64,000 nt of DNA from Ilex aquifolium (taxonomy: Eukaryota; Streptophyta; Magnoliopsida; Aquifoliales; Aquifoliaceae): positions 33,285,244-33,349,243 of the forward strand of contig OX637393.1 in NCBI GenBank assembly GCA_951799425.1, written 5' to 3'. Shown piece after piece: positions 8,328-59,587 of the stretch. How positions within the stretch are numbered: position 1 is the stretch's first letter; the number at the start of each line of letters is the position of its first letter. Under the pieces are notes generated by a model that had not been told where the DNA came from, made no database searches, and worked only from the letters and a program-made list of their open reading frames with translations. A program made the position numbers and the translations under genes.

Positions 8328-8979
8328 TGATTAGCACAAAATATTGCATATTTCATGTGCCATTACATTCCTTTTTCACTTACTTTTGCGGATTAAATGA
8401 GCGAAATTGCACTACTTAAGCTATTAACGAAGATTCGTTGTGTTTGCAGAGAAAAGGGGCTAAATGATGATAGATAAGCCCTATCATGGTGTTCAAGACA
8501 ATTGGAGTTGAGAACGAGGCTTGAGGAGAGCTCATGAGGTGGAGGAACCAAGATTTTTGCAAAACCAGGAAGAACCTACTGGTATGACCTACCGATAGGT
8601 TGAGCCCACTGGAGTGAAACCTACCGGTAGGTTTCCATCGACCTACCGGTAGGTTTTACTGAAACAGCCCAGATTCTGCATGTCAAGCTCTGCCACTTTG
8701 ATGGTCCCGCCAGACATTCTCCTACCTGCCCCTGCCTCTCCCAACACCATGGACATCCCTCTTGCACCTCTTCTTGGACTTTTGGATGTTTGATCATTAA
8801 TGAGGAAAGAGGAGAGAAAATGTGCTGGGTGTGGAGACAAGACCTGCACCAAACCTGTCCAGCCCATCCCTCTTCAGCCCCTAGGCATGGTGATCACATT
8901 AGATAGCTAGTGCAGGACTCCAGGGACGTTTTTTGGCAAGGGGAGGAGACCATTGTATAGATATAGCATATAGATTGTA

Positions 8980-9017
<38 letters not shown>

Positions 9018-9961
9018 AAGGAAGAAGATGAATAGTGCTAGAGAGAGAAGTTAATATTCTGCATTTTCTTTCCATACATTGTCTTGTAATCTCTTGTAAG
9101 AATCTTCCAAGCTTTGCTCTGAATCTTTAATGCCATTTATTTCAAGTTGATTTTAAGTTTAATCTTCTATTCAAGCTTTCACTATTAATGCATTCATGTT
9201 CTTCATTTTCTTAGTTTTAAAATAGGTATTAAATGCATTCTCTTTTAGTTTACGTTTTCTTGCCTTAATTTAGCTAAAATCTTCATTTCTTTATCATGCC
9301 TTCTCATTACATTGTTGTCTTTACCTTAAGCATGAGTAGCTAAGTATTCAAGTTGGCTAATCCAAGGGAGACCTCCTCTTGGGTATGTCATTTCAACTCA
9401 TTTTCTTTCCTCCCCTCGGTGTACGATGGTTCGGTTTGACTGGGTTGAGTGTGGACATGGTTGTGAGTCTTTGATATTCTGTAGACTTGTCACAGTTTAT
9501 GCTTGGATCCTCACTTCCATCTTGTCCCGAGCTTCCCACGAATCAATCGTTCATCTATGCACCATTGGAGGAAGGTTTCGAGTTGACTTGGCATTCCCAT
9601 TGGAGTGAACCTTTTGGATTAGCCAACACTTGTTTCCCATTCCAAATTCATCACAACACAAATCACAAACCAATTCCAAACAACAAAAGATTTTACACTT
9701 TTCTTTCACCAAAATCACCTTCTACACGATTCACATCCTTCCCTGGGGAGACGACCTTGGAATACCTCCAAGTAAAACACGACACGCAAAAATCTTCTTG
9801 CGCTTGGGAAGCATTTTTGTTCACTCACACATTTTATTTTCCACCATTCCCTTGCCCTTTCTTTTGACATCATTCCAAGGGAGAGTGACACTCCCCCCTT
9901 TCACATATACATTGAGGGAAGATGTTAGGAGGTTAGGAACAACAAGGAAATACTTCAAGCA
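8328..9961 (+). repeat. Left (5') LTR of Athila-1
   Basis: 1634 bases from TGATTAGCACAAAATATTGC to GGAAATACTTCAAGCA; matches 44947-46619 along its length. In U3 it carries an array of CCTACCGGTAGG-like palindromes at 8575-8655. A (GA)n tract lies at about 8982-9015, just after the TATA-like stretch TATAGATATAG (about 8957-8967). The last 500 bases hold open stretches that appear in both LTRs and are not genes. Confidence 0.93.
8575..8655. promoter_or_regulatory. ACCGGT palindrome array, U3 of Athila-1 left LTR
   Basis: Four imperfect to perfect copies of the 12-base palindrome CCTACCGGTAGG within about 80 bases, separated by short spacers. The same array is at 45193-45319 in the other LTR and a related one is at 43190-43258. 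A regulatory role is inferred from position only. Confidence 0.5.
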
Positions 9962-9965
9962 TTTT

Positions 9966-9983
9966 TGGCGTCGTTGTCGGGGA
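9966..9983 (+). other. Primer binding site of Athila-1
   Basis: TGGCGTCGTTGTCGGGGA lies 4 bases after the left LTR. It is close to the Athila/Tat primer site TGGCGCCGTTGCCGGGGA seen intact in Athila-2 and Athila-3. That site is conventionally paired with tRNA-Asp in Athila-type elements. Confidence 0.85.
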
Positions 9984-10169
9984 AGGCAAGCGTTGAATCA
10001 AGAAGGTGATTTCCGGACAACGGAGGTAAGTCCCGTGATGGTCATCATGGGCTGAGGTACGTTGATCCTTGTATATACTTTTATTTGGCTGCATTTTTAA
10101 TTGTAGATAGTTTTGTTATATGTGGGGACAGGACGATCAAAACCTATTAGTTAGACAACCCTTGGGCCC
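9984..10169 (+). other. Leader of Athila-1, before the Tat-2 insertion
   Basis: Non-coding leader between the primer site and the Tat-2 insertion. Its last five bases GGCCC (10165-10169) are the left target copy for Tat-2; the right copy is at 23996-24000. Confidence 0.7.
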
Positions 10170-10480
10170 TGATGGTGTAAACCTCCGGATACGAGCTAAG
10201 GAACCAGATTAATTGGCGTGAACAGTTTGCATGGGGACTAATATGGCATCTGAGCTACAAGGCTCATGAAGTGGAGAATGAAAGCTCTAATTAGTCGTGT
10301 ATAATGTGTGAAATACGGTGGAAATATAGTGGTTCACCGGCCAGTGAGCTCGGCTAGTCCACTCTCTAATGGAGGCTCTTGCTCCTTCTTCTTTATTGAT
10401 GAATTGAAGGTGTTACAGTCGAATACTCAGGGAACTAGGGTTTCAAAAAATCTCTCTATTCTAATGGGGGATATCTCTTT

Positions 10481-10490
10481 CTTTTTATAG
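10481..10490 (-). promoter_or_regulatory. TATA box in Tat-2 3' LTR
   Basis: CTATAAAAAG on the minus strand, at the same offset in the 5' LTR (23596-23605). About 390 bases of U3 precede it in element orientation. Confidence 0.65.
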
Positions 10491-10749
10491 CCTCATATTT
10501 ACCTCTAATACGAGACTATCCTACATTGAAGGGATCGTGCCCTATCTTCATCCACAATTCCGGAGTTACCTAAATTCCTTATGGCTGGCTTTAAACGGAG
10601 AGATCTTTGCCTTCTTCTGTGGGATCCTCCTTAGTTTTAGGAGGAGATCATGGTTAAATACGGGTTTTCTGCCTCGGATTGGATTCTACCTCCTTAATAA
10701 GGGTATCCGAGTCGTCTTGTTGTTCCCTCAGCATTTCTCCTCTCGCGCC

Positions 10750-10852
10750 TTCGACTAGGAGCTCTTAGTGCTGACTGGATGAGCTCTGCTCATGGCTAGG
10801 GGAGCTCAGCTTATTTTGCCTGAGCTCCCGAGCTGAGCTCTCTTACTGAGCA
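10750..10852. promoter_or_regulatory. GAGCTC palindrome cluster in Tat-2 U3
   Basis: Five GAGCTC or near copies in about 100 bases, several arranged as longer inverted repeats such as GAGCTCCCGAGCTGAGCTC. The same cluster is in the other LTR (about 23865-23967). The same core builds the hairpin array at 16950-17675. Function is unknown. Confidence 0.45.
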
Positions 10853-10880
10853 CGTGCCAGTTTTATTCTGGGTATCATCA

Positions 10881-10900
10881 GTTGCCCCCCAGCCCTTGCC
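10881..10900 (-). other. Polypurine tract of Tat-2
   Basis: On the minus strand a GGGGGGCAAC stretch directly precedes the 3' LTR (plus strand GTTGCCCCCC after 10880). This is the expected priming site for second-strand synthesis. Confidence 0.75.
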
Positions 10901-11529
10901 TTGAGTTAGCTCAGGCAGGGGATGACTTGTACAAGACGAGTTAGACGTGCGTGTGGCTGGCACGTGGCTGGAGGATTTCTGACGGTTTTATAGCCATCAT
11001 GACTTTCCTCGATTCCCGCGCACGTCTCAGCCCATGTCTCCCAGGCTTTAAATGCTTAAAACGGCTATCTAAACTGCTTCTTCGCACTATTCATCTTCTT
11101 TACTGCCCTTCGTCTCCGCTCTCTCTGTGATCCCAGTCCTTCTTGCCTTGGTTTTTCTATTTTCTTGCCTGAAATCGAATTTCCGGACCTCGTTTCGAAG
11201 ACTTGCGACGCCTCCTTTTCCGATTTCGTTCCAAGCTCCTGTTTGCCACTATCCCTGGGTTAGGTACGTCCTTTGCCCTTATTTCTTCCTTTTTTGCTCT
11301 GGATCCCTCGAGTTCGAGGTGGTTATTGCATTTTTGGGCTTTTCGGTTCTTTTATTTTTGGAATCGTGACCATTGTCTAGCCCCACTTCACCACTTCGTG
11401 GATTGGGGTTCTGTAGTTCATATCCTTGCTGTTGGGAGCCACTGTGTTGATTCCCGGGTCATTAGAGAGTGCCTGACTAATCCCCCTTTGCTCTATCGCT
11501 CTTTCCATCTTCCTTTTTCTCTCCCTATC

Positions 11530-14159
11530 ATGTCTGCTTCTTCTGAAGCCATTCGCTCCTCTGTTTCACTTCTAGGATCTAGGTCAGCCGGGGAAGATAC
11601 GGATTTAGGGGAAGTTGGTGATGAGATTGATAATTTTCCGGGTGTAGAGGTTGTAGAGGCTGAGGTCTACGCCGAGGAGCCTCCCTCCACCTTATCTTCC
11701 CTGCCCCCCAGACCTGACAAAGGCAAAGCTAAGATAAGTGGAGTCGGGGTGGAGGAAAAAACCTCGTATCTAGGGCTTGCCTTTAGGCATGCCGAATCTG
11801 TGGGCTGCAGTAAAGAGGCCCCTAGGCTAATGAAGTCTTATAAAGTTCGGTATGGTTTTCCCCCTAGGGTCGAACCCTGGTGCCCAGATCGATCCGTTTG
11901 TTATGTAGAAAAAGTTCATAACAGAGTCTGCTTCTTTCTTGCTGCTTTTGACAATGGCCTTCGCTTTCCTTTGCATCCCTTCATCAAGGCTGTTCTGCAA
12001 CATTTTCATGTGTGCCCTTCCCAGATCTCCCCCAACTTCTATGGCGTCATGGTTGGTCTGTTAGTCCTGTTTAAGAAGCATAAACTTGGGATTCCTAGCA
12101 TTCCTTTGTTCTTAGAGCTCTTCAATGTAAAACCGACCTCCGGAGGCTTCTTGTATGCCTCCAAGCGTGCCAGCGTTAGGCAGCTCATCTCTGACATTCC
12201 GACCTCCCATAAACACTGGAAGGAACATTTCTTCTTTGTCGGGGGCACCAATTGGGAGTACAACCCTGCTGATAAGACAGACACACTCGGTATCCCTACG
12301 GCCTGGGCTGAACCAGATAATTTACGTGAGTCCTTACTTGAGTTCGAGCTCTGATCTGGAACCTGCCGGCCTCTTATCTTTTTCTTATTTGCATACTTTC
12401 TTCCTCTTAGGTGAACGCTACGAGCTCAGCCCTGAGGACAAAAAGTTGCTAGCAAAGTTGGAGAAGATCAAGCCAGAGAAGTACGCCGACTTGATTGAGT
12501 CAAGGAACCTGGTACAGCTAGGTCTGAGTCTTCCTGTGGCGACTTTAGCGATCCCCTTGTCTGTTTTAGGGGCTGACGAAGGTGATTTCAACGCCATTCT
12601 TTTTCCTTTCTTCATTATCTTTCCTTCCTTTCTCTTTTTCTTTACATTTTCCTACTTCTTCCAGATCTTCCAGGTCCTTCTACCATGAAGGTTATTCCAG
12701 AAGAGCTTCAGGCCAAAATTGCAGAGCTGATGGAGGGTGGCAGGTCTAGGAAACGCAAAGCTCGGGTAGGCTCTGGGAGCGGCCCAAACACTCGAGCTAA
12801 GATCCCCAGGCTGGAAGCATCTTCTCCCCCCTCTGCAGCTGAAGGACAGGTTCCAAGCAAGGCTCCGCCCTCCTCCTCTGGAACTCCACAAGCTGCAACC
12901 ACCTCTTCTTCCCCTCCAGTGGCCCCTTCTAAGTTGGCGTCTGCTCAGGAGAGGGATCAGGCTTCCCCTTCTTCTTCTGAGGTCAAGGAGGCTTTGGAAT
13001 TGGTTCCCGACCTTCAACCCGGGAAGTTCGAATACAGTGCTTCTGGGAAGGTGACTGAAAAAGAGAGAAAGTCTGAGGAGGAAGATGAGGACTCCTTTTT
13101 TGACAATATAGACCTTGCTGCTGGAGCTCTTTCCTCTATCTTTTCTGAATCTGATGTCCTGAAGGCCGCTTCCATGCCCCTGGAGGAATCCATCTCTTTG
13201 GCCCTTCAGGGAGCTGCTACTGTGAGTGTTAACCCCCTGTCTCTCTCTGCTTGTTTGTATTTCGTGGTCTGACATTATTTGCTGTACTTTCCTTATATTC
13301 TCAGGCTGCCCTTCATACGAAAGGTCTGCTGCACCGAGTTCGCTCTCAAGAGAGCTCTTTCCAGGTCTTAAAGAAATACAAGACCAAGGTTTCAGAATTG
13401 TCTCTTGAGAATGAAGACCTCAGAGCTCAGGTGGAGAGCCTTAAAGTGCAGATGGAGGGTCTCAACGAACAGATGGTGAAGCAAGCCTCCGATCTCAAAC
13501 ATACACTGACAGTCAAGGCCAGAGCTGAGGAAGGGGAAAAGAAGACTCGGGATGAGCTGAAGGCGGTTAAGGAAGACCTGCAGGCTAAGGTTGAGGCGTG
13601 GTCCAAGGCTAACCAGGAGGCCTTTGACGCTAAGAGGGAGCTCATCCAGGTTAATCAAGATTATCTTGCCCTCAGTGAGGCTAACGGCAAACTCTGTGAG
13701 GAGCTCGAGGAGCAGAAATATTTGGTTCAAGAGAGAGACAAAGAGTTTGCCGAGCTTAAGGATGAGGCCACCACTTCATGGGCTACTGGATGGCTTGCTT
13801 TTAGGCGTAAGGCTACCAAAGCATATCCAGACCTTGATTTCAATCTCCCTATCCCCACTGAGGAGGAAATGGAAGAATCTGGCACTGACAATGAAGGGGA
13901 TATCTCAGACTCCCCAGCTGCTACCTTAAGTCAAGACACACCCTCCCCTGGGACCTCAGAAGCTATTATCGCGCTCCCTGAGCCTTCAACAACGATTCCT
14001 GAGCTTTCTGCTGCAGCTCCTGCTGTTCCTGTTTCTGCATCCTTTTCAGCTGTCGTGGTGTCTGAAGCCCTTGTTCAAGGTGAGCCCTCAGCAACAGAAG
14101 CAAGGGACTCCTCTACTGAGCTGCGATATCCTTCAATCCCTCTTCTTCCAGAATCCTAG
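11530..14159 (+). CDS. Tat-2 antisense gene A (putative gypsy-type transposase domain, NLS, coiled coil)
   Basis: Runs opposite to gag-pol. Four coding blocks (about 11530-12330, 12410-12575, 12685-13230 and 13300-14159) are separated by T-rich gaps that look like plant introns; splicing is untested. The first block holds a domain with the GLRFPLHPFI...CPSQISPN pattern. I recognise this as the 'putative gypsy type transposon' family (Pfam Transposase_28 style), known from plant Tat-type antisense ORFs. The third block is Ser/Pro/Ala-rich with a basic SRKRKAR signal. The last block is a strong coiled coil of over 100 residues rich in Glu, Lys and Leu, then an acidic Ser/Pro tail. The ATG at 11530 is chosen because the upstream extension is low in complexity. 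No enzyme motif is seen; nuclear localisation is inferred. Confidence 0.65.
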
Positions 14160-15320
14160 GTCTTTTTAGTTGTAATTTCTCTGTAAAGAATTTTTCGTGA
14201 TGTAGTATTTGACTTCATTTATTGCTCTTTTGCTGGCTTAGTATATATATACATATCTTTCAATTTCAGCATATATGTATTTTTGGATTTTGATTCGACT
14301 TCGACTCGAACCGCAACGGTGCACTTATTTGCCTGGCTTTGCATGCACTCAACTTTGTATACTCCCCTTGCCCCCTTTTGCTTTGAGGGGTGCTGTGCAC
14401 TTCTTGAAGCAAAATTACTAGGTTTGAAGAGTACAGGGGACTTGGTGTTATGTTCGACTGCTTTTCCCGAGCCTTTTAAGCTCGGTAGTTGGTACCCTAG
14501 GGGTCCACTCCTTATTCTTCTTCGTCCTAAGCTGCTCAACTCTATATTCTGAACTGGCGTGCTCCTTCAGAGTTGCATAGCTCGTGCTTGTGAGCTTATA
14601 AATTCTTGCTGAGCTAAGACGGTTCTTTTTTCGAACTTGAGAGCTCTGAGCTCTTTGTCTTTTCTGTATGAACTGAAGAGCGCTTTCTGAGCTATTTGGC
14701 TATGTTGTCTGATCTTAAAGTTTATTTCTGAGCTTCGTGGTTCTTTTGTCTGAATTTACGGGTTCTGTCTGAGCTTCATGATTCTTTAAACGAACCCTTC
14801 TCTAGATCAGATAATAAATTTCATTGCTCCATTTCTCTAAGAGTAGAAGACCTTCTTCTACGTTTCACCTCTCTTTTCCCCACATCTTGCTTTGCGGAGT
14901 GCTTTAGGCCTTCCTTAAGCGAGGTTTTGAGCTTTCACACCTCAAAGATTTGGTATACAAGTGCTCTGTTTTTTACTGGGCTGAGCTCAAATATGGAGGG
15001 TATATTACTTGGTGGGGTCAGAATTTTCGTTGGTCGTTTTGAGTGCAAATAGGAGGGGTAGTATCTGGTTTCTTTTCCCGCGTTTTTCTCTCAACCGCTT
15101 CCCATAACCGCCACATCTTTCCCTTTTCCATAACCGCAACCACTTTCCATAACCGTAGCCACTTTCCATAACTGCTGCTACCTTTATTAATTAAGAAACT
15201 GAACAGGCCACTTGATTCCCTCTTTCTTGGCTCTTAGTTTCCTGAAAAGCTCCCAAGTGCATGACCTATTCTTGACTTTCTTCCTGATTTCTTGCATCTT
15301 TTTCCATACCAGCATTTTCG
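14160..15320. other. Spacer between the two antisense genes of Tat-2
   Basis: About 1.2 kb of T-rich, non-coding sequence. GAGCT and GAGCTT motifs recur every 20-60 bases in 14400-14990, a looser form of the element's GAGCTC theme. At 15095-15180 there is a short repeat of CCATAACCGC-like units (five or so). This spacer would serve as 3' end of gene A and promoter of gene B; I see no clear TATA box. Confidence 0.6.
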
Positions 15321-16409
15321 ATGGCTGCCTCCGCTTCTTCTTTGTTCCAGGAACGATCCTCCTTTGGAATCGAACGGGAGTGGCATTGTCGCTATCTGTC
15401 CCCTTCAATACTCGAATCTTCTGACTTGGCGGGCATCAAGAAACGGTTTTTCCCTGATCTTGACTTGCCTATGCGAGTCTCTTCCTCCGACGAGCCTTGT
15501 AACTACCTTCCCCGAGGGGAAGTCTGTTTCTTTGAAGGTGCTATGGACATGGGACTTCGCCTTCCCATTCATCCGGCCATTGGGCGAGTTTTTGCCTATT
15601 ATGGCCTGTGTCCTTCTCGCCTTTCTCCACGAGGATGGGGTGCTATGGTAAGCTTCTTCTTGTTCTGCCGCCTGCATGCTCTTGGCAGGTTCCCCTTTGT
15701 CTCTGAGTTTCTATACTTCTTTGAGATTGAGGAAGATAATGCCCCCTGCTTCAGTTTTTTCCGTTTGAGGGATTTCAATTTACGCCCTCTGGTTCTAGAT
15801 CTTCCCTCCAACCCTGAAGGGTGGTCTGAGCGTTTCTTCTTCGCTTCTGGAGAGGCTTGGAGGTCTCCTGAGGATCGCTGTCGTAAAGCCAGGATTCCTC
15901 GGTCCTGGAAGAGCTTCTCTCGTATTGGTAAGCTCGATCATGGCTCTTTTGAGTACTTTCCTTTTAAAAATATGCTCTGATTATGTCCTTGCTGTGTAGA
16001 TCCACCTGATCTGGATTTACCAGGGATGGTGAATATCAACGAGCTGTTGCTTGTGGAGTCTAAGACTTATTCCGAGCTGATGACGAGCGCAAACCTCTAT
16101 TTGCTTGGGGCTGAGGCTACTGAGTTTGAGTTTTCCACTATTCCTTACTCTTCCTGGACCTCTTTTTCTGATTCTGATGAGGATGGGGATTCTGACATGG
16201 ACGGAAACACCGTCACGAGTTCGAGGAAGCGTAAGAGGGACGATTCCCCTTCTCCTGACTCTCTGTCCACCATCTTCCTTACCTCTATTGGTCAGAAGCT
16301 CCTTAACTCGCTTCAAAAGGCTGAGCAGGAAAGGGATGAGCTGAAGAAAGAGAATGCTAGCCTGAAGGGAGAGGTTGCTGAGCTGAAATCTGAGCTTAAG
16401 AAAGACTAG
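15321..16409 (+). CDS. Tat-2 antisense gene B (second, related transposase-like domain, NLS, coiled coil)
   Basis: A second gene in the same direction as gene A. The first block (15321 to about 15928, starting MAASASSLFQERSS) holds the same domain type as gene A: compare GLRLPIHPAI...CPSRLSP with gene A's GLRFPLHPFI...CPSQISP, and the F-F-F-A/V-G motif near the end. A short T-rich, intron-like gap follows. The second block (about 16003-16409) has an acidic stretch, a basic SRKRKRDD signal and a C-terminal coiled coil (residues from AEQERDELKKE onward). It lacks gene A's long Ser/Pro regions and is much shorter. The shared layout points to a duplication within the element. Function is unknown; dimer formation through the coils is inferred. 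Confidence 0.6.
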
Positions 16410-16577
16410 GATCTTTGTTTCCTTGTATCGTTCTTTCTTTTCTTAAGCGATATCAGACTATGACTCTTCTTGTATTTTTCTGAATATTTGCACTCTCGGA
16501 TATTTCGAATGCCAGACTTTTCATTCATCTCGAATTCTGTTAGGTTATTTCAGCTTACGCAAAAAGTTCGAAACACG

Positions 16578-16705
16578 AACGTAGATGGAAAACAGAAGAT
16601 CATGTCTGCTCTAACCTTGGTCTTTCACTGACCCCCTAGGTCGAACCACGGAGATCGATGGAGAACAGAAGATCATGTCTGCTCCGACCTTACTTCTCAT
16701 CTGAC
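16578..16705. repeat. Two-copy direct repeat in Tat-2 3' region
   Basis: Two related copies of about 80 bases, recognisable by the shared core ACAGAAGATCATGTCTGCTC (about 16592 and 16664). Non-coding; belongs to the variable 3' region of the element. Confidence 0.6.
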
Positions 16706-16797
16706 CTCATAGGTGTTCTCTGTTGTTCTGGACCTTTCGAGGTCTTTGAGTGTGTAGGCAGTGCACAAGGGTATCCGGTCCTGGGGGGTGGACCATT

Positions 16798-16947
16798 GGT
16801 GTCTCCACGGAGCGTTCAGCCTTGAATTTGACTGTTGGTGTCTCCAAGAAGCATTCAGCCTTGAATTTGACTGTTGGTGTCTCCAAGAAGCGTTCAGCCT
16901 TGAATTTGGCTGTTGGTGTCTCCAAGAAGCGTTCAGCCTTGAATTTT
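16798..16947. repeat. 39-base tandem repeat in Tat-2
   Basis: About four copies of a 39-base unit with core GGTGTCTCCAAGAAGCGTTC followed by AGCCTTGAATTTG. Copies differ at one or two bases each. Tandem repeats in the region 3' of pol are a known trait of Tat/Ogre-type elements and have seeded satellites in some plants. Confidence 0.8.
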
Positions 16948-16949
16948 GT

Positions 16950-17675
16950 ACGAGCTGAAGAGCTCGTCTTTAATTTATAAACTTTGAAGCTTATCGTGTT
17001 TTTATGAGCTGAAGAGCTCATCTTTGATTTATAAGCTTTGAAGCTTATCGGGTTTCTATGAGCTGAAGAGCTCATCTTAAATTTATGGGCTGAAGAGCTC
17101 ATCGTTTGTTTATGAGCTGAAGAGCTCATCTTGCATTTATAAGCTTTGAAGCTTATCTTTTGTTTATGAGCTGAAGAGCTCATCTTGCATTTATAAGCTT
17201 TGAAGCTTATCGTTTGTTTATGAGCTGAAGAGCTCATCTTGCATTTATAAGCTTTGAAGCTTATCGTTTGTTTATGAGCTGAACAGCTCATCTTGCATTT
17301 ATAAGCTTTGAAGCTTATCGTTTGTTTATGAGCTGAAGAGCTCATCTTGCATTTATAAGCTTTGAAGCTTATCTTTTGTTTATGAGCTGAAGAGCTCATC
17401 TTGCATTTATAAGCTTTGAAGCTTATCGTTTGTTTATGAGCTGAAGAGCTCATCTTGCATTTATAAGCTTTGAAGCTTATCTTTTGTTTATGAGCTGAAG
17501 AGCTCATCTTGCATTTATAAGCTTTGAAGCTTATCGTTTGTTTATGAGCTGAAGAGCTCATCTTGCATTTATAAGCTTTGAAGCTTATCGTTTGTTTATG
17601 AGCTGAAAAGCTCATCTTGCATTTACAAGCTTTGAAGCTTATCGTTTGTTTATGAGCTGAAGAGCTCATCTTGCT
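16950..17675. repeat. 54-base double-hairpin tandem array in Tat-2
   Basis: About thirteen units, the regular ones spaced exactly 54 bases. Each holds two perfect inverted repeats: GAGCT-GAAG-AGCTC and ATAAGCTT-TG-AAGCTTAT. The first units (16950-17110) are irregular and shorter. The array lies just 3' of the pol stop in element orientation. A long minus-strand open frame through it (16707-17750) is a by-product of the repeat period being divisible by three. Confidence 0.9.
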
Positions 17676-17750
17676 ACTTTGGAGACCATTGGAGGGTGAA
17701 TAAAAGGCTTGCTCTTTCTTATTTAAAAGTAGTTCTATTACAAGTAACAC

Positions 17751-20700
17751 TTACTGAAAAAACTTCTTAAGGTGCTCGGCATTCCACGAGTGAGGTAGAA
17801 CCTTTCCTTCCTCTGTTTGCAACTCGTAATTCCCTGGTCTGATTATCCTTGACACGATATAGGGCCCCTCCCAATTGGGTCCCAATTTCCCATGCGTGGG
17901 ATCCTTTCTCGCAAGCATAAGCCTCCTAAGTACCAAATCTCCAACCTTGAAACTTCTGTGTCTTACCCTCCTGTCATAGTACCTTGCAGTTTTCCTTTGG
18001 TATGTACGGACACGGTGCAGAGCTCTGTCCCTCTTTTCATCCAAGAGATCGAGGTTTAGCAAGAGAGACTCATCATTGTGCTCAGAATCCGCAAACTCCA
18101 CCCTTGGTGATTGGAGCCCTATCTCCACTGGGGCCACTGCCTCGGTCCCAAAGGCCAAAGCAAAGGGGGTTTCCTGAGTCGCAGATCTGGCGGTGGTCCT
18201 GTAGGCCCACAACACCTCCGGAATGTACTCCACCCACTTGCCTTTCAGGTTTTCTAGCTTGGTCTTCAAAGCTGACTTTATGGTTCTTATTGTGACCTCT
18301 GCCTGCCCATTAGACTGGGGATGGGCAGGAGCTGAGAAATAGTTCTTGATTCCGAGCTCGGCACAAAAACTTTTGAACTTTGAATTATCAAACTGCTTTC
18401 CATTGTCAGACACGAATGCTCTGGGAACTCCAAACCTGCAAACTATCGACTTCCAAACGAAGTTTTGAACTTTTTGCTCTGTGATCGTTGCCAAAGGTTC
18501 AACCTCCGCCCATTTAGTAAAGTAATCCACTCCTATGATGGCAAACTTGCACTGCCCCACACCGGTGGGAAGGGGTCCCAGAATGTCCAACCCCCACTGC
18601 TGAAAAGGCCATGGGCTTACCACCGAGGTTAGGAGCTCGGGAGGACAGTGGGACATATTAGCATGCTCTTGGCAAGTTTTGCATTTTCTTACTAAGTCGG
18701 TGGCGCTTGTGAGTATGGTGGGCCAATAATATCCTTGCCTCAGTACTTTTCCTGCCAAGGCCCGAGCTCCTATGTGGTTGCCACATATCCCCTCATGTAC
18801 TTCTCTGAGTATGTAGTTAGCATCTTCGTCTCCTACGCACTTAAGGAGAGGCATTGAAAATCCATGCTTGTACAGTTTCCCTTGCATCAGGGAAAATCTG
18901 GCTGACCTGGCCCTTAGCTTGGATGCCTCCTTGGCATTATTTGGCAAAGTTCCATTCTGAAGGTACTCTACGATGGGATCCATCCAGCTCGGCTGAGCTT
19001 CAATTGATAGAATTTCCCCTTCTTCGATGCTTACCGAGGGCTTTGGAAGGTGCTCTACTGGAATTAGCCTATCCAAATCCTCCTGCGAGGCAGTTGCTAA
19101 CCTTGCCAGAGCATCTGCTCGTGAGTTCTCCACTCTAGGCACGTGTCTGACCTTAACCTGCACGAACTGTTTCATTAGTTCTCGTACCTTTTTGAGGTAC
19201 AGGACCATCTTCTCGCCTCTTGCCTCGTAACACTCTTCTATCTGCTTCACCACCAGTTGAGAATCACTGCAGATCTCCAGCTGCTCTGCTTCCATAGAAT
19301 AGGCAAGATTAAGCCCAGCGATGACGGCTTCATATTCTGCCTCATTATTTGAAGCTTTGAACCCAAATCTGAGGGCATATTCGACGTCTATTCCTTCTGG
19401 GGAGGTCAGGATCATTCCTGCACCGCTTCCCTGAGCATTGGCAGCTCCATCCACTGAAAGCTTCCATATGGGAAGGTCCGGTACTAAATCCGTGGTTTCC
19501 ATAGGCGCTGCTGCTGTGAATTCTGCAATAAAATCTGCCAAAATTTGCCCTTTGATGGCAGCTCTTGGCTTGTACCTGATATCAAACTCGCTGAGCTCTA
19601 CGGCCCATTTAACCAACCTCCCTGAGGATTCTGGCTTGTGTAGTACTTGCTTCATTGGCTGATCTGTTGGAACCTCAACAGTATGAGCCTGGAAATAAGG
19701 TCTAAGTCTCCTAGCTGTTGTAACCAGAGCTAGAACGAGTTTTTCCATCCTTGGATATCTCTCCTCTGCCCCCCTCAGAGCTCTGCTACAGTAGTAGACT
19801 GGTTGCTGAGCTCTGTCTCGCTCCCTAACTAGCGCTGCACTTGTTGAAAAATCTGAAACTGCTAGGTAGAGGGTGAGAATTTCCCCTTCTAGAGGGCTCA
19901 CCAGAACAGGGGGAGAGCTCATATATCTCTTTAGGTCTTCGAATGCTTCTTCACACTTGGCATCCCAGTGGAATGCCTTCTTCAAGATTTGAAAAAATGG
20001 CTGGCATTTATCGCTAGCCCTAGACACAAAACGGCTCAGTGCAGCTATCCTGCCTGTCAAACGTTGCACCTCTTTCGTGTTGGATGGTGATTGCATTTCC
20101 ATCATTGCTCTAACCTTTTCTGGATTGGCTTCAATCCCTCTGCTGTTAACTATAAAGCCCAGAAATTTTCCTGCCGAGACCCCAAATGCGCATTTCGCAG
20201 GGTTTAACTTCATTTTGTATTCCCTTAGAATTCGGAATGACTCAGCTAAGTGCTCGATGTGGAGCTCTGCTTTCAGTGACTTCACTAGCATGTCATCAAT
20301 GTAAACTTCCATGGATGCTCCTATTTGCTTCTGGAACATTTTATTTACTAACCGCTGGTAAGTGGCTCCAGCGTTCTTCAATCCGAAGGGCATGACCTGA
20401 TAACAATATGTTCCCTGTTCAGTCACAAAGGAGGTCTTCTCCTGATCGCTGGGATCCATCCTGATCTGGTTGTAGCCTGAGAAGGCGTCCATGAAGCTGA
20501 GGAGCTCGTGCCCTGCAGTGGCATCCACTATTAGGTCAATCCGAGGTAAAGGAAAACTGTCCTTGGGGCATGCTCGGTTGAGATCAGTGAAGTCGATGCA
20601 CAATCGCCACTTCCCATTGGTTTTCTTTACAAGAACTACATTTGCTAACCAAGTGGGGTAATGAACCTCCCTGATAGCCTTGGCATGGAGGAGTTTGCTG

Positions 20701-23222: not shown

Positions 23223-23263
23223 CAGTCACTGAGGAATCAGCTTACTTGTAACAGGAACAGTCG

Positions 23264-23281
23264 TTCCCACAGACGGCGCCA
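23264..23281 (-). other. Primer binding site of Tat-2
   Basis: TGGCGCCGTCTGTGGGAA on the minus strand, three bases inside the 5' LTR. This is the usual Tat-type primer site; I do not assign the tRNA. A decayed version is present in Tat-1 at about 52352-52369. Confidence 0.85.
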
Positions 23282-23284
23282 AAC

Positions 23285-23995: not shown

Positions 23996-24004
23996 GGCCC
24001 CAAT

Positions 24005-43258: not shown

Positions 43259-43546
43259 TTGCCCAGAAAGCTAAAATTAGGGCTTTTAATCGATGTTTTT
43301 CGGTAAAACCCTTCACTTTCCTCCTTAATATCGAACCCTATATCATCCCTAACTCACTCAATCCTCCCCCAAACTTCCCAAATCACTCCTCTACTCCATT
43401 AAACTTTAAATCCCCAACCCTAGGCCTATTGAATTAGTGTTTTCATTGAAGATTTGAAGTTTGCCCTCTTTGGAACCCTAGGATTGCCGAAATTCTCTCA
43501 AGCCCTAATCTCCCTTCATCTTTCCAAAATTCTCCAAATCTTTCAA

Positions 43547-43824: not shown

Positions 43825-44765
43825 TGATTAGCACAAAACATTGCATATTTTATGTGCCAATACATTCCTTTTTCACTTGCTTTTGGGGATTAAATGAGTG
43901 GAATTGTGCTACTTGAGCTATTAACGAAGATTTGTGGTGTTTGCAGATAAAAGGTGATAATTGGTGCTTCTTAAAGCCTTCTCAAATGGTTTGAGGTGAA
44001 TGAGGATGAAAGGATGGCTCGAAGATAGCTCAGGAGGCGAGGAAACCAAAGAATTAGCAAAAACAGGAGAAAACATACCGGTAGGCCATACCGGTATGTT
44101 TCAGCTACTGGAGTTCGACATACCGGTATGCCATATTGGTAGGCTATGCTGAAACAGCCCAGATTCTGCATATCAGGCTCTGTCATTTTGAGGGTCCCAC
44201 CAGACATTCTCCTACCTGCCCCTACCACTCCCAACACCATGGACATCCCTCTTGCACCTTCTCTTGGACTTTTGGGAGCCTTGGTGATCAATGAAGAGAG
44301 AGAAGAGGATAGATGATGGGTGTGCAAACAAGGTCTGCACCCACCCTGTCCAGCCCACTCTTTTGCAGCCCTATGGATGGAGATCACATCACCTAGCTAG
44401 GGCATCACTCCATGGACGTTTTTGGCAAGAAGAGATACATTATGGAAGATACATTGTAATATAGAGAGAGAGTCTAGGAAGAAGATGAATAGTGTTAGAG
44501 AGAGAAGTTGAGATTTTTGCATTTTCTTCCATGCATTGTCTTCTAATTTCATGTAAGAATCTTATAAGCTTCCTTGAATGCCTTTAATGTCATTTATTTC
44601 AAGTTGTTTTTAAGTTTAATCTTCCATTAAATCTTTCACCATTAATGCTTCTATGCTCTTCAATTTCTTAGCTGTAAATGGGTATTGAATGCATTCTCTT
44701 TTAGTTTATGTTTTCTTGCATTATCCTAGCTACAATCTTCAATTGCTTTAGAATGTCTTTCATTT
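43825..44765 (+). repeat. LTR fragment of a related Athila family
   Basis: Starts TGATTAGCACAAAACATTGC and stays similar to the Athila-1 LTRs up to about 44765 (through the CACATCACCTAGCTAG region and the GAGAGAGAG leader), then ends. It is a different subfamily: its palindromes read ATACCGGTAT (44073-44150) where Athila-1 has CCTACCGGTAGG. It lacks the last part of an LTR. Its TG start directly abuts the third ORF. Confidence 0.75.
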
Positions 44766-44946
44766 ACATTAATGAAATACCACAGTTTCTGTTCCATCTT
44801 GTCCAAGGTTATTTCGTTAATTACATTATGATTTTTGTATTTTGATTTTTTGGGTAAATTGTTTATTTAAATGGATTGTTGTATGTTATATTCTTGTTTT
44901 GAAAATAAACTTTGCTAGGGACTATCAAAGCTCAAGTTGGGGGGTG
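44766..44946 (+). other. Athila-1 3' end with polypurine tract
   Basis: AT-rich, non-coding; ends CTCAAGTTGGGGGGTG (44931-44946), the polypurine tract directly before the right LTR. Confidence 0.8.
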
Positions 44947-46619
44947 TGATTAACACAAAACATTGCATATTTCATGTGCCATTACATTCATTTTTCACTT
45001 GCTTTTGCGGATTAAATGAGTGAAATTGCACTACTTGAGCTATTAACGAAGATTCGTTGTGTTTGCAGAGAAAATGGGCTAAATGATGATAGATAATCCC
45101 TCTCATGGTGTTCAAGACAATTGGAGTCAAGAACGAGGCTTGAGGAGAGCTCAGGAGGTGGAGGAACCAAGATTTTTGCAAAACCAGGAAGAACCTACCG
45201 GTATGACCTACCAGTAGGTTTTGGCTATTGTCCTGCACCTACCGCCAGACCTACCGATAGGTTGAGCCCACTGGAGTGAAACCTACCGGTAGGTTTCCAT
45301 CGACCTACCGATAGGTTTTACTGAAACAACCCAGATTCTGCATGTCAAGCTCTGCCACTTTGAGGGTCCCACCAGACATTCTCCTACCTACCCCTGCCTC
45401 TCCCAACACCATGGACATCCCTCTTGCACCTCTTCTTGGACTTTTGGATGTTTGATCATTAATGAGGAAAGAGGAGAGAGAAGGTGATGGGTGTGGAGAC
45501 AAGACCTGCACCAACCCTGTCTAGCCCATCCCTCTTCAGCCCCTAGGCATGGTGATCACATTAGACAGCTAGTGCAGGACTCCAGGGACGTTTTTTTGGC
45601 AAGGGGAGGAGACCATTGTATAGATATAGCATATAGATTGTAATAGAGAGAAAGAGAGAGAGTAAAGGAAGAAGATGAATAATGCTAGAGAGAGAAGTTA
45701 ATATTCTACATTTTCTTTCCATACATTGTCTTGTAATCTCTTGTAAGAATCTTCCAAGCTTTGTTCTTAATCTTTAATGCCATTTATTTTAAGTTGCTTT
45801 TAAGTTTAATCTTCTATTCAAGCTTTCACCATTAATGCATTCATGTTCTTCATTTTCTTAGTTTTAAAATGAGTATTAAATGCATTCTCTTTTAGTTTAC
45901 GTTTTCTTGCCTTAATTTAGCTAAAAGCTTCATTTCTTTATCATGCCTTCTCATTACATTGTTGTCTTTACCTTAAGCATGAGTAGCTAAGTCTTCAAGT
46001 TGGCTAATCCAAGGGAGACCTCCTCTTGGGTATGCCATTTCAACTCATCTTCTTTCCTCCCTTCGGTGTACGATGGTTCGATTTGACTGGGTTGAGTGTG
46101 GACATGGTTGTGAGTCTTTGATATTTCGTAGACTTGTCACGGTTTATGCTTGGATCCTCACTTCCATCTTGTCCCGAGCTTCCCATGAATCAATCGTTCA
46201 TCTATGCACCATTGGAGGAAGGTTTCGAGTTAACTTGGCATTCCCATTGGAGTGAACCTTTTGGATTAGCCAACACTTGTTTCCCATTCCAAATTCATCA
46301 CAACACAAATCACAAACCAATTCCAAACAACAAAAGATTTTACACTTTTCTTTCACCAAAATCACCTTCTACACGATTCACATCCTTCCCTGATGAGACA
46401 ACCTTGGAATACCTCCAAGTAAAACACGACACGCAAAAGTCTTCTTGCGCTTGGGAAAAAATTTTGTTCACTCACACATTTTATTTTTCACCATTCCCTT
46501 GTCCTTTCTTTTGACATCATTCCAAGGGAGAGTGACATTCCCTCCTTTCACACATACATCATACATACATTGAGGGTAGATGTTAGGAGGTTAGGAACAA
46601 CAAGGAAATACTTCAAGCA
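44947..46619 (+). repeat. Right (3') LTR of Athila-1
   Basis: 1673 bases from TGATTAACACAAAACATTGC to ACTTCAAGCA. Differs from the left LTR by roughly 3 percent plus length differences in the palindrome array (45193-45319). Followed by target copy ATGAC (46620-46624). Confidence 0.93.
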
Positions 46620-46725: not shown

Positions 46726-47349
46726 TATCACAGGGGTAAAATTTTCACTCGAATTTTGCCTCGTGATGGCACTGAGATCAAAAACACACTATTGAACAGA
46801 ATAGAGGCAAGAAGCAAACTCACAACAGGCACACACAAGATTACAGGCCAATTGGCCAAACCTTTTTACCTCTCAACAAGCCTAAAGGAAATTGACTAGG
46901 GGTCTGCTTACAAAACGTGCCCAAACTCCCTTCGTTTGTTAGAGACCCCAGCATGCCTATAAATAGCACACAATGGCGGTTACAAAGCCCAACTGGCTAG
47001 GCAAATGTAGGCACCAATCAGATTTTCCCTCATGGATTTTGGAGTCCCTGCCATTCCCCACAAATATGTTGGATACTTCAGCATCTGTTGCTAATCATGG
47101 CAGATTGTACTGAACATGGCTGAGTAGTTGTAACTGTCGTTTGACTCAACCAACAACTGCTTAGAACTGTCTACATGTTGTGTGCACATGCAAGCAACTT
47201 CCCCTCATGTTGTGTATATGCCATCAACTGCACAGAACCGCCTCACTTGAGTTGTACATGTCACTAGCTGCTCATAACTGTCTCACATGATGTGCATCTG
47301 CCTTCTTTTTGAGCCCATAGCACCTAACTTGTCTTGCCTGTGTGCCAAG
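46726..47349 (-). repeat. Right (5') LTR of element C, first part
   Basis: Similar to 2953-3560 over its length (for example GATTACAGGCCAATTGGCCA and CACCAATCAGATT). Interrupted at 47350 by a solo LTR; continues at 49283. Confidence 0.75.
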
Positions 47350-49282
47350 TGATTGATTGAAAACGTTGTTGTATTCCCTAACCTTTTAACATCATCCCTC
47401 AATGTGTGTATGGCTTATAGGACTAAGGGAGTGTCACTCTCCCTCTGAATGATGCAAGAGATAGGGCAACAACGGATTGGTGGAAAATGGAATGAACAAA
47501 ATGTGAATTGAAATGCGGGTGTGTGAACAAAAGTGCTCCCCAATCACAAAGAGTCTTTTGTGTGTCGGTGTTTTACTTGGAAAAGTATTCCAAGGTCGTC
47601 TCCTCAGGGAAGGAAAGTTCGAGTGTGTGAAAGTGATTTTGGTGAACAAAAGGGAAAATGTAAAATCTTGTGTTTGTGTTTTGTGAGTGAAGTTTTTGAA
47701 AGAAAATGCAATGAAAACAAATGTTGGCTAATCCAAAGGGTCATTCCAATGGGAATACCAACTCAACTCAAAACCTTCCTCCAAGGGTTTATAGATGAAC
47801 GATTGATTCGTGGGAAGCTCGGGACAAATGGAAATGAAGATCTAAGCATAAACCGTGACAAGTCTACGGAATATCAAAGCCTCACAACCAAATGGAGGTG
47901 AGGATCCAAGCATACCCCGTGACAAATGCCTACGGGATATCAAAGACTCACCACCACGTCCACACTCAACCCAGTCAAACCGAACCATCGTACACCGGAG
48001 AGGAAAGAAAATAAGTTGAAATGGAGGGCCCAAGAGGAATTCTCCCTTGAATTAGCCAACTAAAAATCTAGCTAGTCATGCATAAAGGAAAGACAAGCAT
48101 AAAGTAAATGGACATAATGAAATGGAGCATGAAACTTGAACTAATACAAGAAAACTTAAACTAAGAAGACAAATATGAAAAACCCAATTTAAAAGCTTGA
48201 AATGAAGAGAACTTAAATAACAATGGTGAAATCTAGAATATTCAACTAAACTTGCAAAGCACTTGAAGTAAATGACATTAAAAGTAATTCATGAAGCTTA
48301 CAAGAGTATTCAAGAAGATTACAAGTGAAAAGATGGAAGAAAATGCAAAAACATAAATTTCTTACACTATGGCACTATTCATTGTCTTCTTCATGGGATT
48401 TTCTAAGCTTAGGTAGCCACCCAAATACAATGTGTAAATGCTGAATATAATGGAGAGTTAGCCTTCAATTTTCGTGCATGGTGGTCCCCCCCTAGCTGTG
48501 TGCAGGCCTCCCATCAATAGGAGGCTAAGTTGAAGCTTGGACAGGCTAGGAGAAGGTTAGCCTGCAACTCCCCTGGTAGCCCCCTTCAATCCCCTCTTCA
48601 TTGAATGTCAAGCCTCCCAAGTCTTTAACTATGGTGTAGGAGGCATGATTGTAGGGATAAAATGTCGGGCTAGGTGTGGGAGAACCAATGGTGGGACCCC
48701 CAAGCACATGGAGAAGTGTTTGCAGGTGTTCTGGGAGCGTACCGGTACTCTAAACCTTCTGGAGTTCGAAGTACCGGTACGCAGTACCGGAACGGTATAG
48801 TACCGGTACTGTGTACCGGTACTGTTTTCTGCTCCGGACCAGTCTTCGTAGAATTGGCATAAATTTTGATCTAACCGTCCGATTGAGCTGAAATTTTGAA
48901 ACAATACAGAAGACATCCAGATCTACAACTTTAATGCTTTGAAATTTTTCAGATTCGAAGTGGATCATGGTCAAAATGGAGGAAAACCGAGGCTCTTCAA
49001 CCCAGTGGTGTGGCTGCTGGCGCCTTTGTTACCAAACACCAATACCTCCTTGATTTCTTCACTTTTAAGCCTCCAAATCTTCATGTAATGTGTCCATGCC
49101 CTCACCACACATCCAACATAGTTGCAAGGTCCTAAAATACATGATTTAAGCTATAAAAACATGCAACATCGAGAATTCAACATTATTCATAAAATCGGCT
49201 AACTCTAAGTACTTAGATGCAAAAGTTGAGTTAAAATGCATGTAATGAGGCCTTGAAATATACAATATTTTTTTGCTCATCA
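47350..49282 (-). repeat. Solo LTR of an Athila-like family inside the element C LTR
   Basis: 1933 bases from TGATTGATTGAAAACG to GCTCATCA, flanked by CCAAG (47345-47349) and CCAAT (49283-49287), a 5-base target copy with one difference. It is related on the minus strand to the Athila-1 and gag-only-element LTRs: it shares the GTGTCACTCTCC block near its start and TGTAAAATCTTGTG-like and GGCTAATCCAAAGGGT blocks. It carries GTACCGGTAC palindromes at 48739-48825. No internal region. Confidence 0.8.
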
Positions 49283-49473
49283 CCAATCCATGCCTAACCC
49301 ATGGCTTGGTCTTCCAAGCTCGCAATCCACCACAATTGAAACCTACTGGCTAGCCTTGCTTGCATCTTGCTTGTGCTTAACATGCCCATGCATGTGTTGC
49401 CTTCCCCAGCCATGCATGGGGCTTCCACCAGTAATAGATTCTGCCCAACGTGCCCATGCATGTGTTGCCTCAG
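49283..49473 (-). repeat. Right LTR of element C, second part
   Basis: Continues the similarity to 3575-3767 (CCCATGGCTTGGTCTTCCAAGC onward). The end near 49473 is where the two copies diverge and element B sequence resumes; this limit is approximate. Confidence 0.6.
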
Positions 49474-52369: not shown

Positions 52370-52371
52370 AA

Positions 52372-56712: not shown

Positions 56713-57690
56713 TCAATCCGGCTTCAATTCGGATATGAGCTTGCGCCCATTGATTTTTTTCATTTTAAAATTTTTTTGTTGTATAAATGCCCTTCCTACC
56801 CAATCTATCCAAACATAGTAAGGATAATGATTCAAAATTCTCAACCAAACACAAGTGTAGGCAAGTTCATGCAATCCCAACAATGGAGTGTAAAATTTCT
56901 CTTTATAAGTTTCTACACTTAACTCCATTGCAATGCCCTCCCCAAGTTGAGAAATGTGAATATCAACACCACTCTTAGATGGAAAAATGATCTTGGACTC
57001 ATTATCCTCATGTGAGATAATATATTCATTAAATTTTTCACAATCTAGAGTGGTGGGAGATTCAACATCAATATGCATTCCATTGGGATGATCATTCTCA
57101 ATACATTGACTATGCTCAAGATGTTGTTCTTCATGCATAGCAATTATGGCATTAGTCAATGTATTAAGTTGTTGGGTTATTTGGGCAATGAATTCCATTT
57201 GGTATTGCATAAAATCGCACAAAATATTTTCCAATTCTTCTTCGGTTGAGTCCACGTATGTTGGATAGTGGCAAAATTCATTTGGTAGTGTGAGATTGGA
57301 TGAAAAATTATAAGGTTCATTCTTCCAACCATAACTCGGATAACTCGATGTAACATAATGGTTGGGGTAAAAATTTTCGGAGGCCAAAATTGAATTTGAA
57401 CATTCGCATGCAAAATTTTGAACCGAATAATTTATTGGGCACTCACTCGTGATGTGTCCATACTCACCACAAATCTCGCAAACGTTTTCAAAATAAGGGG
57501 CATTTATTGGGCACTCACTAGTGATGTATCCATACTCACCACAAATCTCGAAAATGTTTTCAAAATAAGGGGCATTTATTGGGCACTCACTAGTGATGTG
57601 CTCATACTCATCACAAATCTCACACACATTTTCATAATATGGGGCATTTGATACATTTTCATAAAAATAATAAGACATTACATAAAACAC
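56713..57690 (-). CDS. Gag-like ORF with three tandem zinc-knuckle units
   Basis: 325 codons, open. Residues about 20-90 hold three tandem 24-residue units of the form CEICGEYGHITSECPI, i.e. CX2CX4HX4C-type knuckles, each preceded by NAPYxEN. Next comes SYPSYGWKNEPYNF, comparable to Athila gag tails, then a predicted helix EEELENILCDFMQYQMEFIAQ and an acidic stretch. The C-terminal 70 residues include LLGLHELAYTCVWLRILNHYP and a basic end KKINGRKLISELKPD. No protease, RT or integrase motifs. It would act as nucleocapsid-like RNA-binding protein if made; only remains of a longer gag may be present. As part of an LTR element it is treated as a fossil. Confidence 0.65.
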   Translation of the reverse strand: MFYVMSYYFYENVSNAPYYENVCEICDEYEHITSECPINAPYFENIFEICGEYGYITSECPINAPYFENVCEICGEYGHITSECPINYSVQNFACECSNSILASENFYPNHYVTSSYPSYGWKNEPYNFSSNLTLPNEFCHYPTYVDSTEEELENILCDFMQYQMEFIAQITQQLNTLTNAIIAMHEEQHLEHSQCIENDHPNGMHIDVESPTTLDCEKFNEYIISHEDNESKIIFPSKSGVDIHISQLGEGIAMELSVETYKEKFYTPLLGLHELAYTCVWLRILNHYPYYVWIDWVGRAFIQQKNFKMKKINGRKLISELKPD

Positions 57691-57799
57691 AAGCTATTTA
57701 CAAACTATTTACAAAAGAAACGACATACCTTGGCCCGTGATGAAAATCACGAGACTTACCTATGCCGTCCAAAATCACCTTGAACTCGACGCTTAACCT

Positions 57800-57817
57800 T
57801 CCCCGGCAACGGCGCCA
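57800..57817 (-). other. Primer binding site of the gag-only element
   Basis: TGGCGCCGTTGCCGGGGA on the minus strand, four bases inside the LTR; identical to those of Athila-2 and Athila-3. Confidence 0.88.
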
Positions 57818-57821
57818 AAAA

Positions 57822-59587
57822 TGCTTGACAAAATACCTTGTTGTTTCCTAACCTCTAAAAACCATCCCTTAGCATGTGTAGTGTATGGACAAAGGGATTG
57901 TCACTCTCCCTTGGGATGATATGGGAGATAGGGCAACGGAATGGTGGTAATGAAAATGGAATGAAATGTACAAAATGTGTGTGTGGTGAACAAAAGTGCT
58001 CCCTAAGCGCAAGGAGTCTTTTGTTTGTCATGTTTTACTTGGAAGAGTATTCCAAGGTCGTCTCCTTAGGGAAGGAAAGGTCAAGTTGTGTGAAAGTGAT
58101 TTTGGAGAACAAAAGGGAAAAATGTAAAATCTTTTATTTGAGTTTTGTGAGTGAAGTTTTTGAATGAAAATGCAATGAAAATAAGTGTTGGCTAATCCAA
58201 AGGGTTCACTCCAATGAGAATCCCAACTCAACTCGAAACCTTCCTCCAATGGTGCTTAGATGAACGATTGATTCGTGGGAAGCTAGGGACGAGATGGAGG
58301 TGAGGATTCAAGCATACACCGTGACAATGCCTACGGTGTATCAAGAATTCACAACCAAATGGAGGTGAGGATCCAAGCATAACCCGTGACCAGGCCTACG
58401 GGATATCAAAGACTCACAACCACGTCCACTCTCAACCCAGTCAAACCGAACCACCGTACACCGAGTGGAGGAAAAAAAAAGAGTTGAAACGGAATCCTCA
58501 CGGGGAGGTCTCCCTTGGATTAACCAACTTAAAATCTAGCTACTCATACTTGAAGGAAGGCATACAATATGTAAAGAGACATGTAGAAGAAATAAAGCAT
58601 GAAACTTAAATGAATGCAATAAAACTTAAACTAAGAAGAAAAATATTCAATACCCATTTTAAAACTAAGAAATGAAGAAAGCTTGACACAACAATGGTGA
58701 AATGAAGAACATGTAATTAAACTTGCAATATTCTTGAAATAAAAGAGATTACAATGCAGGAAATAAAGATTACAAGAGGTCTACAACTTACTACAATGAA
58801 ATGGGAGAAGAAAATGCAAAAATATAAATTTTATCTCTCTAGCACTATTCATCATCTTCTTTATTGAGCTAAGACTACTCCTAAGCTTAGGTAGCCACCC
58901 CCCTTTGATCTTGTGTGAATGCTGAATATATGGAGCAGGAAGACTTGCATTTTCGTCCATGGAGGGTCCCCTAGCCTGAGAGAGCAGACCTCCCATCAAT
59001 GGGGTGCAGGAGGAATGGGCTGGACAGAGGGGTTGCAGAGCTTGTCTGCACACCCAGCTCCTCTTCTCTTCTCTCTCCTCATTGATCACCTAGGCTCCAA
59101 ACTTTCAATCAAGGGTGTAAAAGGGGTGAATAATGTTGTGGGTGTGTCAGGGAAGCATGGGAGGTCTGTTGGTGGGACCCTCAAAGCAGCAGACATGAGT
59201 TGCAGAGCATTTGGGCAGATCAGGCAAAGCCTACCGGTACGCGTACCGGTATGTCGAACTCCAGTTGCTTTAGCATACTGGTACGTATACCGGTACACTG
59301 AACTCCAGTAGCCTTAGCGTACTGGTACGCGTACCGGTACGGTTTGGCTGACTTCTTGATTTTCTGATTTCCTCATCTCCTGAGCTATCCCCAAGCTACC
59401 TTTTCATCCTCATTTGTCTCAAATGGTTTGGGAAGGCTTTAAGAAGCCTAATTTAGCACCTTTTAATTGCAAACACCAAATATCATCGTTAAGAACTGAA
59501 TTAACCCAACTCCCATCATTTAATCTCCAAAAGCAATTAAAATAAGATGATTAGCACATAAAAATATACAAAGTTTTGTGCTAATCA
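57822..59587 (-). repeat. 5' LTR of the gag-only element
   Basis: 1766 bases from TGCTTGACAAAATACC to TTTTGTGCTAATCA. Related to the LTRs of Athila-1 and the solo LTR at 47350-49282. U3 (high-coordinate side) carries GTACCGGTAC/ACGCGT palindromes at 59229-59342. Confidence 0.85.

Follow-up and report, generated by a model that had tools for sequence, protein, structure and literature searches.

Short repeated cis-elements, differing between subfamilies, form tandem enhancer repeats in the unique 3′ region (U3) of Tnt1-type retroelements; we know of no internal counterpart to them. In the Sireviruses (Ty1/copia), according to the available part of Bousios et al. 2010 (PMC2829016), family-specific palindromic RM boxes cluster in the long terminal repeat (LTR) upstream of TATA and occur again before the envelope-like gene (ENV), for which an internal promoter is proposed; the same part reports RM as absent in classic (non-Sirevirus) Ty1/copia elements. 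In Arabidopsis Athila6A, an ENV open reading frame (ORF) promoter is named and the transcription starts are said to be characterised (PMC4977677, in the part accessible). Here, we describe the arrays of two elements, Athila-1 and Athila-2, in a stretch of 64,000 nucleotides of Ilex aquifolium (contig OX637393.1; hereafter the window) and of their relatives in the host genome. Each family carries its own motif in U3 and again past pol, ahead of the third ORF (ORF3). The Athila array is probably an orientation-independent activator-binding module, common to the LTR promoter and to an internal ORF3 promoter.

In Athila-1, the internal array (43190–43260) matches the U3 of the same element (8587–8657) over 71 bp with 88.7% identity (BLAST, E 2e-20). 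In Athila-2, the match between 32941–33028 and 39730–39817 covers 88 bp with 75% identity (E 1e-10). In both elements, the matches between U3 and the internal site stop at about the array edges, and both internal arrays stand ahead of ORF3. In the cross-controls between Athila-1 and Athila-2, the likeness does not exceed that of shuffles (equalled in 203 and 283 of 500). The reverse transcriptase (RT) stretches of the two are 67% identical; they are therefore related, and the view of the initial annotation that Athila-1, Athila-2 and a third element, Tat-2, are unrelated finds no support. A TTATAAA starts about 42 bp downstream of the Athila-2 internal array.

The host genome (800 Mb) contains 10124 sites with at most two mismatches to AAACCTACCGGTAGGTTT, the palindrome of Athila-1, vs. 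60 for the pattern read backwards. A search with the Athila-1 ORF3 leader gave 40 scored matches among 309 candidates. Thirty of the matches, including that of the window itself, were cut out. Exact ACCGGT is found within about 160 bp upstream in 27 of the 29 other copies (L032 and L046 are without it). Twenty copies were followed downstream, leaving out L032 and L046 (no upstream array), L034, L037, and L052–L056. A downstream ACCGGT array is present in 18 of these (not in L061 or L075), 16 with CTACCGGTA flanks and 2 with GTACCGGTAC flanks. In 15 of the 18, the stretch common to the internal and the downstream array amounts to 89–135 bp at 76–88%, and control stretches farther upstream at the same loci score only 10–17. 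The U3 array copy begins 230–304 bp into the LTR (14 copies with a recognised LTR start).

A genome search for the PF20167 domain of the Athila-2 ORF3 gave 150 scored places among 6661 candidates, about 25 of which were followed; none was found in 14 control genomes. Among the A2-type elements (14 plus that of the window), GCGCCTAGGCGC is shared by the two sites in 6, missing from both in 6, present only internally in 3, and only in U3 in none (one-sided Fisher 0.017, with copies that are not independent); L107, with a 10-bp form of GCGCCTAGGCGC, is scored as absent. In the A2-type U3, TATA lies 92–94 bp past the last GCGC in 11 of 14 elements and 82–99 bp past it in 13 of 14 (one in an AT run). 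One PF20167 copy (C4:6061275) shows no array in L091, L094, and L095, and no polypurine tract or LTR start in L095. Its status as an LTR element is not established and it was left out; it counts as a miss if it is one.

Two further families, F377 (named for a 377-residue frame) and F406, are grouped by their PF20167 ORF3, pol being outside the comparison. In F377, with a polypurine tract and an LTR-like start downstream, eight TCCGGA cores, seven of them inside CGTCCGGACG, precede ORF3. The last internal core is followed at 12 bp by TATAAATA, with an ATG 102 bp past the TATA start. The F377 U3 has four cores, with TATAAATA 64 bp further on. Five further copies agree (at least 99.5% identical over 421 bp), one having three U3 cores, not four. 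CTGGA-type letters precede several F377 palindromes (L090, L093), to be compared with the CTGGAGT beside the palindromes of the Athila-1 group, though the palindromes differ. In F406, the array is a module of two units. In both elements compared, 36 bp of the U3 copy recur without a change, but in inverted orientation, at the internal site (shuffle maximum 18); the internal palindrome is present in 4 of 4 elements. In the two F406 elements measured, TATATA begins 7 bp past the internal module, and in U3 TATAAATA is further downstream. When the five array types are compared crosswise, two of them (Athila-2 and the CCTAGG relatives) being closely related, the highest score of every internal array is that with the U3 of its own type (5 of 5, 25–48 vs. 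7–17). Thus, the family-specific modular arrays suggested by the initial annotation do occur in both U3 and the pre-ORF3 region, not only in Athila-1 and Athila-2 but also in F377 and F406, the two families with a paired palindrome of their own that a survey of the host genome, of the kind called for there, yields.

The paired layout is not new among plant retroelements, as Sireviruses share it (PMC2829016, in the part available). As in Sireviruses, a repeated box lies in the LTR upstream of TATA in F377, F406, and the A2-type U3 (13 of 14), more boxes stand ahead of an ENV-like ORF in the arrays studied here, and the F377 and F406 motifs resemble the CGG-CCG cores of the RM boxes described in that part. 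On the other hand, the window elements are Ty3/gypsy Athila by domain order, not Ty1/copia, the internal module of F406 is inverted, and the units of Athila-2 are direct repeats of 11 bp. Athila6A, an Athila element too, has before its ENV-like ORF an internal promoter like that proposed here, but neither palindromic arrays nor a module shared with the LTR are mentioned in the accessible part of PMC4977677. In the literature searched, with most subscription papers outside its scope, we found no description of paired palindromic arrays in Athila. They are a variation on the layout known from Sireviruses, and the Athila6A ENV promoter is already in print (both as far as the available parts of these papers go).

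The unit of the Athila-1 group is longer than the six-base palindrome of the initial annotation. In 64 kb, there are five perfect palindromes of 18–22 bp, each around ACCGGT within the arrays (at least 18 bp: shuffle mean 0.35, five reached in 0 of 300 shuffles). Palindromes of at least 12 bp, as a class, are not in excess in the window (24 vs. a shuffle mean of 16.6, maximum 29). Three extra LTRs akin to those of Athila-1, LTR-b (43825–44770), LTR-c (about 47315–49282), and LTR-d (57824–59587), carry ACCGGT arrays that the initial annotation does not mention, with flanks different from those of Athila-1. At 12 of the 17 array sites with an exact core, the bases two positions out from the core on either side are complementary (C–G 5, G–C 5, A–T 2), so that the flanks vary yet still pair (reached in 21 of 5000 shuffles). 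An alignment of 22 units has a covariation score of 0.209 vs. 0.110 in shuffles (0 of 500). Because the array sites are related by descent, both sets of shuffles overstate independence. Among 208 distinct ACCGGT sites from the window and the loci (a sample biased to CTACCGGTAG), 193 have T..A at position 1, and position 2 is complementary in 145 of these 193 (shuffle maximum 125). Nine octamers across six arrays are one letter off TACCGGTA, and in eight of them the change replaces C by T or G by A within CCGG, the pattern expected from decay of methylated cytosine. The spacer CTGGAGT of LTR-c is inverted with respect to the arrays of Athila-1, LTR-b, and LTR-d, and the LTR-c array aligns with that of LTR-d with a score of 36 inverted and 28 direct.

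The hexamer clusters themselves were found again where the initial annotation had placed them. Exact ACCGGT occurs twice per Athila-1 LTR and twice in the internal array, exact AGCGCT twice per Athila-2 LTR and seven times in the internal array, and exact GAGCTC six times per Tat-2 LTR (five clustered) and 13 times in the internal arrays. Against shuffled sequence, the count of the named hexamer is high in the four Athila LTRs (reached in 0, 1, 1, and 0 of 200 shuffles), and clustering of palindromic hexamers is exceptional in the Athila-2 internal array and in the Tat-2 LTR cluster (0 of 300). However, the clustering of any palindromic hexamer within 150 bp is ordinary in the four Athila LTRs (equalled in 178, 188, 260, and 266 of 300 shuffles). 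As a general unit the hexamer fails, the palindromes reaching 22 bp in Athila-1 and an 11-bp CAGCGC direct repeat dominating in Athila-2.

We propose that the Athila array would be a portable site for a dimeric, dyad-reading DNA-binding activator. The U3 copy, upstream of the LTR start region, would drive the genomic RNA, and the second copy would drive a separate ORF3 mRNA. Since each family has its own motif at both places, one factor would control both promoters and the two array copies would, over time, have been replaced together. This explanation covers Athila-type elements, Tat-2 being excluded. The idea of promoter parts, already put forward in the initial annotation, agrees with the TATA and ATG found past the arrays in some families, but not in all.

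Several observations do not fit this proposal easily. The Athila-1 LTR contains no TATA[AT][AT], and none is found past its internal array. Of 14 A2-type relatives, only 1 has a TATA within 150 bp past its internal array, and the 3 internal-only elements among the 15 lack GCGCCTAGGCGC in U3. In the Athila-1 type, 2 of the 18 downstream arrays belong to another flank type, and own pairs beat the mean of the others in only 13 of 18 copies and rank first in 3. A closer likeness of own pairs within that type, considered and set aside, is weak, only slightly above that of other pairs. Most Athila-2 units are direct and only some palindromic, and 5 of the 17 ACCGGT decamers are asymmetric (hybrids). 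In the 22 aligned units, the two measures on which relatedness weighs least stay within the shuffle range: pairs in which both sides have changed (3; 423 of 500 shuffles) and further pair types (9; 155 of 500).

The arrays could act instead as RNA, forming hairpins past pol and in the 3′-terminal part of the genomic RNA, for packaging, stability, or silencing small RNAs. All six arrays of the Athila-1 group have strong predicted folding (z from −5.2 to −8.9), and the palindromes of maize Sireviruses are small-RNA hotspots, as far as the available parts of PMC10760457 and PMC5311732 indicate. Yet folding is weak in the Athila-2 arrays (z of −1.5, −1.6, and −2.7), so that the RNA-structure parts envisaged in the initial annotation would fit the first group and hardly the second. 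The fixed distance before TATA in U3 and the inverted F406 copy suit a DNA site at least equally. A DNA-bound dimer fits better than an RNA signal because the dyad varies between families and is largely symmetric in the Athila-1 group, because the distance to TATA is constant in the A2-type U3, and because the module recurs ahead of ORF3 and is inverted in F406. We regard the RNA reading as improbable.

Nor does it seem likely that mutation alone made the pattern, with unequal exchange spreading units, template switching perfecting palindromes, and recombination transferring array copies between U3 and the region ahead of ORF3. The array length does vary between the LTRs of one element, by a 43-bp gap adjoining GACCTACC repeats in Athila-1 and by two 11-bp gaps in Athila-2, and template switching at quasi-palindromes is described for yeast (PMC5677150 and PMC3820800, in the parts available). 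But the same two places are occupied in five array types, the own U3 being best each time, and the spacing to TATA is constant in the A2-type U3. That ORF3 would be spliced from the LTR transcript, with the internal array marking only an intron or leader, finds some footing in splice-acceptor predictions for the env of Athila and of BAGY2 (cited in the available part of PMC2829016) and in the lack of a following TATA at most A2-type internal arrays, but is doubtful given the succession of array, TATAAATA, and ATG in F377 and the ENV ORF promoter named for Athila6A (PMC4977677, accessible part).

If an activator binds the Athila arrays as proposed, its origin can be considered. In one version, each family would hold a private cis-code, the motif being replaced jointly at the LTR and ORF3 promoters while the reader, element-encoded or from a host family, changes along; we see this as a long shot. 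The CCGG cores common to Athila-1, F377, and F406, which resemble the Sirevirus boxes, hint that two retroelement superfamilies may have recruited one and the same host factor family more than once. An element-encoded regulator was considered and gains no support from 20 homologues, or from an alignment of 18 with the Athila-2 PF20167 piece. Of five models of this piece, the best has a mean predicted local distance difference test (pLDDT) score of 72 and the other four 46–54. The piece has no convincing match in the PDB, by sequence (best E 0.43) or by fold (best E 0.95), and the fold of its model, which is of moderate confidence, does not resemble that of DNA-binding proteins. Scans of IMG/VR with the Athila RT and ORF3 gave no confirmed relatives.

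How the envelope-like third gene of plant retroelements is expressed has been debated. The paired, family-matched arrays of Athila, like those of Sireviruses, suggest that a single cis-module serves two promoters. If both promoters share the module, activation and silencing would hit both transcripts together. The host genome holds natural variants for testing: direct or inverted, with or without TATA.

Tat-2, the third case of the initial annotation, does not belong here, since no homology links its LTR cluster with the 54-bp tandem array inside the element. A pairing of U3 with the internal array was rejected (score reached by 57 of 500 shuffles; cross-table score 10, not outstanding). GAGCTC is also dense elsewhere in Tat-2, with 15 in gag-pol (shuffle mean 2.2) and 11 in the remaining post-pol region (mean 3.5). 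The element carries a 54-bp and a 39-bp array. The former has 27 units of 27 bp, in which two 7-4-7 inverted repeats alternate (arms ATGAGCT/AGCTCAT and ATAAGCT/AGCTTAT) and the edge of which holds a third form; the stems are perfect in 24 of 27. In the 12 of 27 units compared, two pairs are changed on both sides (equalled in 106 of 500 shuffles), and the covariation score is reached in 4 of 500. Predicted RNA folding has a z of −3.5 in the LTR cluster and of −6.8 in one piece of the internal array. Two antisense PF04195 ORFs lie between pol and the 3′ LTR (11173–12354 and 15288–15980, plus strand); the PF04195 copies in these separate ORFs (11917–12306 and 15513–15908) are 34% identical. Tandem arrays past pol are known in Tat elements, and Tat-2 resembles Retand/Tat in the length of its post-pol region and in having antisense PF04195 ORFs as well as tandem arrays (PMC11963269 and PMC7004042, as far as available). 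Without LTR pairing, Tat-2 is the ordinary case.

The window consists of nested plant LTR elements, with Tat-2 and Athila-2, both on the minus strand, within Athila-1 on the plus strand (Table 1). The names Athila and Tat were assigned from the pol domain order, the PF20167 ORF3, and the antisense PF04195 ORFs. Athila-2 has protease, RT, RNase H, and integrase in the gypsy order (Pfam), and the pieces of Athila-1 match in order.

Table 1. Elements, LTRs, arrays, and ORF3 pieces in the window
Feature	Position	Strand	Remarks
Athila-1	8328–46619	+	LTR pair about 95% identical
Athila-1 5′ LTR	8328–9961	+	partner 44947–46619; 5-bp flanks ATGAC on both sides, by eye
Athila-1 U3 array, 5′ LTR	8573–8657	+	AAACCTACCGGTAGGTTT-type palindromes; 43 bp shorter than the 3′ LTR array
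Tat-2	10169–23996	−	LTR pair 99.7% identical
Tat-2 3′ LTR GAGCTC cluster	10759–10840	−	identical cluster 23874–23955 in 5′ LTR; unpaired
Tat-2 post-pol tandem array	16952–17674	−	54-bp repeat of 7-4-7 inverted repeats
Athila-2	28559–40047	−	LTR pair 95.1% identical
Athila-2 3′ LTR	28559–29884	−	
Athila-2 U3 array, 3′ LTR	29587–29654	−	11-bp CAGCGC units
Athila-2 ORF3 piece	31485–32048	−	PF20167 (Transposase_32); sense ORF3 3′ of pol
Athila-2 internal array	32791–33030	−	homologous to own U3 array
Athila-2 5′ LTR	38699–40047	−	
Athila-2 U3 array, 5′ LTR	39728–39817	−	
Athila-1 internal array	43186–43260	+	homologous to own U3 array
Open frame past Athila-1 internal array	43547–43828	+	ends at LTR-b; no Pfam match
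ACCGGT array in LTR-b	44072–44132	+	CATACCGGTATG type
Athila-1 3′ LTR	44947–46619	+	
Athila-1 U3 array, 3′ LTR	45192–45319	+	
ACCGGT array in LTR-c	48736–48825	−	GTACCGGTAC type
ACCGGT array in LTR-d	59228–59343	−	mixed: GTACCGGTAC plus hybrids

The open frame past the Athila-1 internal array is the probable start of ORF3. LTR-b starts within it, and the right part of LTR-b is missing. The stretches 3046–3766 and 46782–49471 are two copies of one repeat, only one of which is split by LTR-c; the comparison of split and unsplit copies suggests that LTR-c is a solo LTR. Adjoining LTR-d, a 72-bp tandem repeat (57430–57649, 3.1 copies) lies in an open frame with a zinc-knuckle match. Opposite the Athila-2 gag stretch, positions 37970–38076 (plus strand) match Rfam snoR71 with 58.6 bits (cut-off 40), and the gag stretch there reads EAWE*FKDLLRKCPHHG. 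This match, and perhaps the whole family, may be a retroelement gag stretch instead of a small nucleolar RNA.

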